Positions 20,926 through 22,993 of a stretch of 64,000 nucleotides of DNA are shown in pieces. Each line of letters starts with the position of its first letter. Within the stretch, counting starts at the first letter, position 1. Both the position numbers and the translations under genes were made by a program. This DNA is from Tsuneonella aeria. GTDB taxonomy: Bacteria > Pseudomonadota > Alphaproteobacteria > Sphingomonadales > Sphingomonadaceae. The stretch is from the NCBI RefSeq assembly GCF_009827495.1, contig NZ_WTZA01000001.1, positions 1,116,001-1,180,000 of the forward strand. Direction: 5' to 3'. Below the pieces are notes generated by a model, which worked only from the letters and a program-made list of their open reading frames with translations, ran no database searches and was not told the origin of the DNA.

Positions 20926-21525
20926 ATGAAACGTATCGCGGCGACGGCGCTGTTTCTGGGCGCCGCGGCGCTTGGCGCTTGCCGGCAGGACTTGGCGCGC
21001 GCACCCGATGCGGCAGAAACCGGCGATCGCGCAGCTACCTCTGCCGAGACGCCATCCTCACCCCCCTCACCTCCCTCGCCTCATGTGTCCACAAGGCCGG
21101 ATCAGGCGGACGACCGATATCCCGATCTCGCCCCGCCCGTTCTCACCCTCGAAGCGGAACGCGGCGTGACGGGCGCCCGCAATTTGCTCGTATCCTGGGC
21201 GCGAGCCATTGAACTCGAGGAGTTCGGCCAGGCGTGGACCTTGCTGAGCGAACAGGATCGGGCGAAGTGGACCAGGCAGGAATGGCTGCGCATGTTCGCA
21301 GATCTCGACCGGATCACGGTGGCCGTGCCCGAGGGGACAATGCAAGGTGCCGCGGGCTCGCTTTACTACGAAAGCCCTGTCACGATAACCGCGACCGACC
21401 ACGATGGCCGTCCGGTGCGCTACGAGGGGGAGGCAGTGCTGCGCCGCGTGAACGATGTCGAGGGCGCCACGGCGGCGCAGTTACGCTGGCACTTCGAGCG
21501 CCTGACGCTCGATTGGACACATTGA
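20926..21525 (+). CDS. Hypothetical lipoprotein
   Basis: This 199-residue protein has a lipoprotein signal ending LGAC (Cys19), a disordered Ser/Pro/Thr-rich stretch (about 20-65, with PSSPPSPPSP), and a compact C-terminal part (about 78-199) containing RNLLVSWARAIELEEF, QAWTLLSEQDRAKW and VTITATDHDGRPVRYEGEAVLRR. The C-terminal part resembles small NTF2-like or DUF4440-like folds, but that is only impression. It follows infC by 60 bases in the same direction. Its stop is three bases before the structured leader of the next gene. Confidence 0.75.
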   Translation: MKRIAATALFLGAAALGACRQDLARAPDAAETGDRAATSAETPSSPPSPPSPHVSTRPDQADDRYPDLAPPVLTLEAERGVTGARNLLVSWARAIELEEFGQAWTLLSEQDRAKWTRQEWLRMFADLDRITVAVPEGTMQGAAGSLYYESPVTITATDHDGRPVRYEGEAVLRRVNDVEGATAAQLRWHFERLTLDWTH

Positions 21526-21527
21526 GA

Positions 21528-21638
21528 GGGCGCTCGCGTGTTTCGGCGCGGTTGAAAACGGCCGCACGCGGCGGTAAGCGCGCCGGGTCCGGCGAGCCGG
21601 TGGAGATGCCCCCTGCGGAGGTTAGGGTGCGAGCGCCC
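21528..21638 (+). promoter_or_regulatory. Structured leader RNA, riboswitch-like, unidentified
   Basis: A perfect 10-bp stem (GGGCGCTCGC at 21528-21537 with GCGAGCGCCC at 21629-21638) closes a 91-base region that can form three internal helices: 21545-21550 with 21579-21584 (holding a GCCG/CGGC hairpin), a CCGG/CCGG hairpin at 21589-21600, and a short CCT/AGG hairpin near 21612-21622. It ends 62 bases before the start of the cystathionine gamma-synthase gene. The overall plan is like a metabolite riboswitch. I could not match it to the SAM, SAH, cobalamin or TPP motifs. Confidence 0.45.
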
Positions 21639-21700
21639 CGGCCCTTGTCGTCCTTCCGCTCCCGCCTCCCTGGGAGCTTCGGCACTCAAGGACCGCACAC

Positions 21701-22993
21701 ATGTCCGATACCCCCTCCCGCAAACCCAAGGCCACAATCACCGAAATCGCTGGCCGACCGCTGAAGCCCAGCACGTTGATGATGGGTGCGGGTTACGATC
21801 CGGCCTTGTCCGAAGGCAGCCTGAAGCCGCCGATGTTCCTGACCAGCACGTTCGCGTTCGAAAGCGCGGCGGCGGGCAAACATCACTTCGAGGGGATCAC
21901 CGGCAAGCGGCCCGGCGGCGCGGACGGCCTTGTCTATTCGCGTTTCAACGGTCCGAACCAGGAAATCCTGGAAGCGCGCCTTTCGATCTGGGACGGTGCG
22001 GAGGACGCGCTGTGCTTTTCCAGCGGGATGACCGCGATCTGCGTCCTCATGCTCGCCCTCTGCTCCGCCGGTGATGTCATCGTGCATTCCGGCCCGCTCT
22101 ACGCAGCAAGCGAAGGCTTCGTGGCAAAGACGTTGAGCCGGTTCGGCATCACCTATGTCGATTTCCCGGCCGGCGCGAACCGCGCCGAACTCGACGCGGT
22201 AATGGCCAAGGCCAAGGCGCAGGCGGAGACGCAGGGCGGCAAGGTTGCCATGATCTATCTCGAAAGCCCGGCGAATCCGACGAATGCCCTCGTCGACGTC
22301 GAGGCCGTGCGCGATGCGCGCGATGCCGCCTTCGGCGCGGAATGCCCGATCGCTATCGACAATACCTTCCTCGGCCCGCTCTGGTCGCGTCCGCTGGATC
22401 ACGGGGCCGACATCGTCGTCTATTCCTTGACCAAGTACGTCGGTGGCCATTCCGACTTGGTGGCCGGCAGCGTATCGGGCGCCAAAAAGTGGATGACGCC
22501 GGTGCGGATGCTCCGCAACACGATGGGCGGGATAGCCGATCCCAACACCGCCTGGATGCTGCTCCGCAGCCTGGAGACGGTGGAGCTTCGCATGAGCCGG
22601 GCGGGCGAGAATGCGGAGAAGATCTGCGCGTTCCTGAAGGACCACCCCAAGGTGGAAGGCCTGGGTTACCTCGGCATGATCGACGATCCCCGTCAGCAGG
22701 ATATCTATCGCCGCCACTGCACGGGCGCGGGCAGCACCTTTTCGGTATTCATCAAGGGCGGCGAGGCGGAATGCTTCCGGTTCCTCGACGCGCTGACGAT
22801 CGCCAAGCTGGCGGTAAGCCTGGGCGGCACGGAAACGCTGGCGAGCCACCCGGCGTCGATGACACACCTGTCGGTGCCCAATGCACGCAAGGAGTTGCTG
22901 GGCATTTCGGACAACCTGGTACGGATCAGCATCGGGATCGAAGATGCCGACGATCTCATCGCCGACTTCTCGCAGGCGCTGGACGCGGTCTAG
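21701..22993 (+). CDS. Cystathionine gamma-synthase family PLP enzyme
   Basis: This is a PLP-dependent trans-sulfuration enzyme of 430 residues. The PLP lysine is Lys245 in YSLTKYVGGHSD. Other core features are YSRFNGPNQ, FSSGMTAI and IYLESPANPTN, and AIDNTFLGPLWSRPLDHGAD just before the lysine. The family includes cystathionine gamma-synthase, gamma-lyase, methionine gamma-lyase and O-succinylhomoserine sulfhydrylase. Sequence alone does not decide which reaction it runs; its N-terminal extension (ITEIAGRPLKPST) is typical of the alphaproteobacterial subgroup. It is preceded by a leader RNA that could sense methionine-pathway metabolites, though no ligand is shown. Confidence 0.9.
   Translation: MSDTPSRKPKATITEIAGRPLKPSTLMMGAGYDPALSEGSLKPPMFLTSTFAFESAAAGKHHFEGITGKRPGGADGLVYSRFNGPNQEILEARLSIWDGAEDALCFSSGMTAICVLMLALCSAGDVIVHSGPLYAASEGFVAKTLSRFGITYVDFPAGANRAELDAVMAKAKAQAETQGGKVAMIYLESPANPTNALVDVEAVRDARDAAFGAECPIAIDNTFLGPLWSRPLDHGADIVVYSLTKYVGGHSDLVAGSVSGAKKWMTPVRMLRNTMGGIADPNTAWMLLRSLETVELRMSRAGENAEKICAFLKDHPKVEGLGYLGMIDDPRQQDIYRRHCTGAGSTFSVFIKGGEAECFRFLDALTIAKLAVSLGGTETLASHPASMTHLSVPNARKELLGISDNLVRISIGIEDADDLIADFSQALDAV

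Follow-up and report, generated by a model that had tools for sequence, protein, structure and literature searches.

The gene for a Cys/Met metabolism PLP-dependent enzyme in Tsuneonella aeria is preceded by a conserved, structured leader RNA; by sequence comparison, this RNA is an orphan riboswitch candidate with strong matches in a single family (Erythrobacter-like bacteria). Comparison of leaders shows three helices (P1, P2 and P3) to be its real fold. It is associated with one gene, and in most copies the loop of P3 (L3) is complementary to the Shine-Dalgarno (SD) sequence of that gene. On balance, it is probable that the leader of NF005455 genes is a cis-acting translational control RNA, in which L3 would choose between the loop of P2 (L2) and the SD sequence according to a signal sensed by the P1/P2 domain.

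Coordinates refer to the window, the whole 64,000-nt stretch of DNA analysed, and all features are on the plus strand. In the ORF listing of the window, an upstream ORF (20926-21525) is followed by a gap and then by the presumed regulated gene (21701-22993). The original prediction placed a riboswitch-like region (21528-21638) 62 bases before the start of a trans-sulfuration gene; with the upstream ORF ending at 21525 and the ATG at 21701, this distance is right. The gene product matches PF01053 and is a member of NF005455, 'cystathionine gamma-synthase family protein' (PRK07049), scoring 654.9 bits against a cut-off of 504. The trans-sulfuration role is uncertain: the next-best models are methionine gamma-lyases, with scores far under their cut-offs. 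The leader is also crossed by overlapping ORFs on both strands of this GC-rich DNA (21234-21764 on the plus strand, and minus-strand ORFs); the ORF listing gives no sign that these are genes.

Orthologues of the gene were sought in 40 relatives and 30 loci were fetched. Half of these (15 of 30, L001-L015) have an exact leader core in common; the leader contains GAGAUGCG..CCUGCGGAGGUUAGG..CGC, then GGCUCCYGCCUYCCUGGGAGC. A covariance model (R1) was built for approximately 21588-21678, and its only paired elements were hairpins P2 and P3. The search for copies beside other genes covered the genome itself and family, order, class and phylum samples. In its own genome, R1 finds one strong copy (E 2.7e-12); the next match has an E value of 5. 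Among 397 family genomes, 155 have a match at E <=1, and there are 125 places at E <=1e-4. All 125 strong places are directly upstream of an NF005455 gene. The loci of 123 were read; of the other two, G016 is the same as L012, and G334 was assigned by adjoining coordinates rather than from a fetched locus. In 119 of the 123 places read, the core is on the strand of the gene and 75-175 nt ahead of the gene's first aligned base. The association with the NF005455 gene holds although the window's upstream neighbours (infC or the ORF at 20926-21525) are present in only 6 of the 30 loci, read with 1.5-kb flanks. The protein itself is matched at E <=1e-150 in 306 of the 397 family genomes; since the RNA is found in fewer, it is younger or less well retained than the gene.

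R1 matches 97 of 296 genomes in the order sample at E <=0.1, weak matches counted, and 4 of 385 in the class sample; three of these four belong to the same family and the fourth match is weak (E 0.02). A second model (R2) matches 9 of 299 genomes in the phylum sample, strongly in only four, all of the same family. The NF005455 gene is downstream in all further strong places for which loci are available (L162-L164 and L361; also L165 and L166). An exact-pattern scan of named genomes gives at least 120 stretches, and the gene is found 60-320 nt downstream in 113 of the 120 returned. Among the 80 matches listed are Erythrobacter, Qipengyuania, Parerythrobacter, Porphyrobacter, Citromicrobium, Tsuneonella, Altererythrobacter, Pelagerythrobacter, Blastomonas marina, Sphingomonas rhizophila and others. 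The seven exceptions comprise L226, in which the gene match begins exactly at the 60-nt limit; four stretches with fewer than 300 nt before the end of the locus; and L222 and L241 (from Lachnospiraceae and an archaeal bin), which have neither a gene match nor an R2 match and look like chance. No NF005455 gene accompanies the weak matches that were looked at (E 0.004-1; L155-L161, L167, L362 and L363). The exact core is absent from L167, L362 and L363, and the multi-copy matches at the seven places L155-L161 were rejected because they have the look of palindromic repeats, and at six of these loci both strands match. Some family genomes, G078 and G153 among them, carry palindromic repeats of the type GCTCCTGCGAAAGCAGGAGC at several positions; these, which often give weak RNA-model matches on both strands, are apparently an unrelated repeat family. 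One divergent copy (L326, from G087) has P2 and P3 separated by a long insert; its L2, L3 and AAGGAAG SD sequence are intact.

The sets of leaders compared below differ in size. Four of the 123 places read (L148-L151) do not have the exact core GGAGGTTAG and were excluded from the promoter, P1-duplex, SD and loop counts, leaving 119; one further leader was excluded from the SD and loop counts, leaving 118. The P1 swap tests omit 17 of the 119 (no AGAN-G anchor, or duplicated), leaving 102, and alignment A3 takes in 100 of the 123.

P1 pairs 21596-21603 (GCCGG, a bulged T, then GG) with 21636-21642 (CC followed by CCGGC). It is separated from P2 by an internal loop, with AGAT on the 5' side (21604-21607; AGAN in most copies aligned) and GAGCG on the 3' side (21631-21635; often GGGYG-like in relatives). 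P2 (21608-21614 with 21624-21630) has one C.U mismatch in the window copy, at 21610/21628, and closes L2 (21615-21623, GCGGAGGTT), a near-invariant SD-like loop with the core GGAGG. P3 (21658-21663 with 21672-21677) closes L3 (21664-21671), an anti-SD-like loop which reads GCCTCCCT in the window and GCCTTCCT in most relatives. The SD-like sequence follows at 21688-21692 (AAGGA; AGGAAG(G) in most relatives).

The original prediction had proposed a covariation check in the leaders of relatives; P2 and P3 covary across 98 distinct leaders. In a first set of 15 leaders, RNAalifold finds changes on both sides in 9 of 24 pairs, and one inner G-C pair of P1 is C-G in two of the 15. In the larger set, standard pairs make up 98.3% of P2 and P3 (shuffles, 92.9), 61 cells are changed on both sides (9.5 in shuffles) and the covariation score is 0.234 (0.123 in shuffles and at most 0.093 in slid controls); none of 500 shuffles reaches any of five measures, in a comparison where the alignment was fitted to the same two helices, which favours them, and where shuffling does not keep relatedness. 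Taken separately, P2 is paired in 96.9% of cells, with both-side changes in four of its eight pairs, and P3 in 100%, with such changes in four of six.

P1 was left unpaired in the model and so could be tested separately. The mean duplex energy of P1 strands with their own partners is -14.28, against -12.20 when partners are swapped between the 102 leaders (z -8.8; reached in 0 of 5000 permutations); the z value is the same for 83 less similar leaders. A cruder swap test based on contiguous runs is weak (native 15.25; swapped 14.67, sd 0.24), with at least one of 200 swaps scoring above native. The centroid fold of 21587-21715 shows P1, P2 and P3; the minimum-energy fold of the window leader lacks P1 and P2. 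The stability of this leader is ordinary (z +0.82; matched by 156 of 200 shuffles). A local 5' hairpin (CCGG..CCGG) in place of P1 was considered by eye in same-genus leaders; it did not look general and was dropped uncounted.

These results bear out one part of the original prediction and overturn another. A structured, riboswitch-like leader RNA does precede the gene, as the conserved model, the covariation of P2 and P3 and the P1 partner-swap test show. The original fold consists of a 10-bp closing stem and three small helices; the conserved helices are different ones, and hairpin P3 falls outside the bounds 21528-21638. The perfect inverted repeat that forms the closing stem, GGGCGCTCGC (21528-21537) with GCGAGCGCCC (21629-21638), is present, and when the 111 nt are folded alone it is part of the minimum-energy structure (z = -1.55; 15 of 200 shuffles fold as well or better). 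It had been considered unlikely to be accidental. The window holds 20 distinct perfect stems of at least 10 bp with loops of up to 100 nt, close to the 16.6 (sd 3.7, maximum 25) found in 20 first-order Markov shuffles of the 64-kb sequence. The 5' arm has no counterpart in any of the ten other same-genus leaders, where perfect complementarity between the homologous 3' region and the 60 nt preceding the -35 box extends over no more than 4-6 nt. The 3' arm falls within the truly conserved RNA (modelled part 21588-21678), and part of it coincides with the 3' strand of P1.

A promoter-like element is found at 21552-21580, with a -35 box TTGAAA (21552-21557), a 17-nt spacer and a -10 box TAAGCG (21575-21580). 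Pairs of this kind reach a score of at least 8 in 79 of the 119 leaders and in 3 of 119 coding controls; spacing is 17 nt in 78 of the 79, and 75 lie at -63 to -70 from the core. From the position of the two boxes, transcription would start near 21587. The 5' arm of the 10-bp stem is 14 nt upstream of the element, and is therefore probably outside the transcript. The closing stem was rejected on chance-level frequency, non-conservation and this position, and a riboswitch closed by it is extremely improbable. The original observation is thus confirmed in part, and its interpretation is supported in part.

L2 is identical in 113 of 118 leaders, with variants at position 2 in the others (four GA, one GT), and its GGAGG is kept in all 124 copies read, including three with a shorter loop. 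L3 is GCCTTCCT / GCCUUCCU in 109 of 118, GCCTCCCT / GCCUCCCU in eight and GCCTGCCT / GCCUGCCU in one; it fits GCCUYCCU in 117. AGGAAG is found within 22 nt before the start codon in 79 of the 118 leaders and in 1 of 187 other genes. A Watson-Crick run of at least six between L3 and the SD sequence occurs in 89 leaders, against 3 of the 187 background genes; in the remaining 29 the run is shorter. The background genes are long ORFs taken from 400 kb of sequence of a single relative; their start codons, like those of the leaders, were assigned mechanically. In 85 of the 89, the distance from P3 to the paired SD sequence is 6-11 nt. In the 79 leaders with AGGAAG, the commonest base at each of the five preceding positions reaches only 30-34%.

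This geometry is that expected of an H-type pseudoknot that covers the ribosome-binding site. Once L3 is paired with the SD sequence, P3 and the new helix would form a compact pseudoknot, with a first loop of one nt and a last loop usually of 6-11 nt, and the ribosome-binding site would be hidden. The spacer between P3 and the start codon exceeds 35 nt in 19 of 118 leaders. Several leaders (L089, L119, L124, L138, L139, L141, L144, L145 and L147) have extra sequence in this interval, some of it hairpin-like by eye; such leaders often have a GGAGG-like SD sequence. The extra sequence is consistent with a tolerant last loop of the pseudoknot.

In the proposed mechanism, L2 and the SD sequence compete for L3: when L2 takes L3 by a kissing interaction, the SD sequence would be freed. 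Mean L2:L3 energies are -7.3 (GCCUUCCU) or -10.2 kcal/mol (GCCUCCCU), and mean L3:SD energies are -9.6 and -8.2 kcal/mol, respectively. The window copy favours L2:L3, at -10.2 kcal/mol, and its L3:SD pairing is weak, at -5.7 kcal/mol. Because L2 and L3 are nearly invariant, covariation provides no support for their contact. Six L2:L3 pairs, G-U included, are reached by 12-15% of composition-matched shuffles and by 2-3% of random equal-base loops; the complementarity could be a composition effect. A fixed translational tuner, or a ribosome standby or decoy site, would use the same parts with no sensing, the GGAGG of L2 attracting 30S subunits or buffering L3. Such a device would account for the canonical SD core in L2, and the alternative pairings exist without a ligand; the conserved internal loop and P1 pairing are hard to explain by a GGAGG decoy, and we consider it improbable.

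A sensing role for the P1/P2 domain, shifting the balance between the two pairings, is part of the favoured cis-acting control mechanism. The domain would most likely be a metabolite aptamer, or else a site for a protein or an RNA. Binding by a protein or sRNA would fit a lone hairpin such as P2/L2, which has a near-invariant 9-nt loop and serves one target gene; a trans-acting factor would then recognise P2/L2 and control the L3/SD pseudoknot. However, the internal loop (AGAN/GGGYG) and a P1 that varies but stays paired are also conserved, beyond the needs of a bare loop. A protein- or sRNA-binding leader is rather unlikely in our estimate, less so than the tuner or decoy.

The P2/L2 region also contains a short reading frame (ATG CGT TCC TGC GGA GGT TAG; MRSCGG) in many copies with an 8-bp P2, which raises the question of leader-peptide attenuation. 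The ATG is not kept, since AGAN varies in its last base; same-genus copies whose P2 has 7 bp, among them the window copy, have a broken frame; GGAG abuts the ATG, so that the usual spacing is absent; and the bases that vary retain pairing. Inspection of the alignments shows neither start codon nor frame to be conserved; the leader-peptide attenuator was rejected and has very little probability.

As in riboswitches, a conserved structured domain is found upstream of a metabolic gene; a single associated gene is narrow for a riboswitch. We regard as possible, with less than even confidence, a new riboswitch class, seen to date only in Erythrobacter-like and related alphaproteobacteria, that would sense a (sulfur) amino acid or a derivative, with an aptamer loop that mimics the SD sequence and kisses the anti-SD loop, opening or closing the pseudoknot.

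The leader matches no Rfam 15 family; the original prediction had likewise been unable to match it to SAM-I, SAM-II, SAH, cobalamin or TPP motifs. At gathering scores, Rfam 15 covariance models find only three tRNAs in the window and nothing at the leader; in the 601 nt around the leader there is no match at E <=5, and in seven relatives (L003, L009, L010, L012-L015) none of six matches at E <=3 is at the leader. In its possible action the RNA resembles pseudoknot and kissing-loop riboswitches, and it is filed in none of these classes. In cobalamin riboswitches, a loop of the aptamer makes a kissing contact with that of a hairpin in the expression platform; the leader RNA is far smaller than this class and has no Rfam match to it. 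SAM-II (SAM_alpha) and further riboswitches that form H-type pseudoknots have a hairpin loop that base-pairs with downstream sequence at the SD. L3 of the leader RNA may likewise pair with the downstream SD sequence; unlike SAM-II, the leader RNA has, ahead of the pseudoknot hairpin, a distinct P1/P2 domain whose loop is SD-like, and it has no Rfam match. The Guanidine-II riboswitch differs in its gene and loops; in the leader RNA, an SD-like GGAGG would form one of the kissing loops, and again there is no Rfam match. For Guanidine-II, a kissing interaction between the two hairpin loops once the ligand is bound has been proposed (PMC9094411); SAM-II is reported before metA/metZ in Sinorhizobium meliloti (PMC9373788). 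A predicted beta-proteobacterial metX/metZ RNA element is presented in PMC4239095 as a candidate cis-regulatory element of methionine genes with a terminator-antiterminator arrangement. In contrast, none of the 119 leaders has a run of five T within 15 nt after P3 (one has a run of four), and an intrinsic-terminator attenuator was rejected on this ground.

No mention of the leader RNA was seen in the literature searched. Term searches of PMC4239095, PMC8632094 and PMC11109978 give no mention; for the 26- and 50-genome surveys (PMC8632094, PMC11109978) this applies to the main text. The operator-like palindrome described below is likewise not mentioned in the literature searched.

The palindrome GGTTNCANNNGNAACC scores at least 9 of 11 in 52 of 119 leaders, against 1 of 119 controls, and overlaps the -35 box of a number of RNA-bearing genes (L033-L153); part of the conservation of the promoter-like element may therefore be that of the operator. 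In 8 of 19 additional stretches from the family (L308-L326), it is immediately upstream of the ATG; one of the 19, L326, carries the RNA, and another, L317, falls within the gene. L317 and L327 (only 42 nt) are uninformative. The copy in the window is degraded (score 7; half-site 21550-21559). Upstream of the gene for HPPD (4-hydroxyphenylpyruvate dioxygenase), a palindrome scoring at least 9 is found in 19 of 23 cases, against 1 of 23 coding controls. This distribution suggests that one transcription factor may serve both NF005455 and HPPD genes, and hints that the NF005455 enzyme belongs to amino-acid degradation. On the strength of this hint, we lean weakly towards an ON switch for an amino-acid-degrading enzyme.

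The leader would add an orphan riboswitch candidate with an unusually clear anatomy, more than 100 natural variants and one target gene. If the competition by an SD mimic is real, the design is a compact one: a single loop selects either the real ribosome-binding sequence or a decoy. The leader RNA may also help to reveal the role of the NF005455 enzymes.
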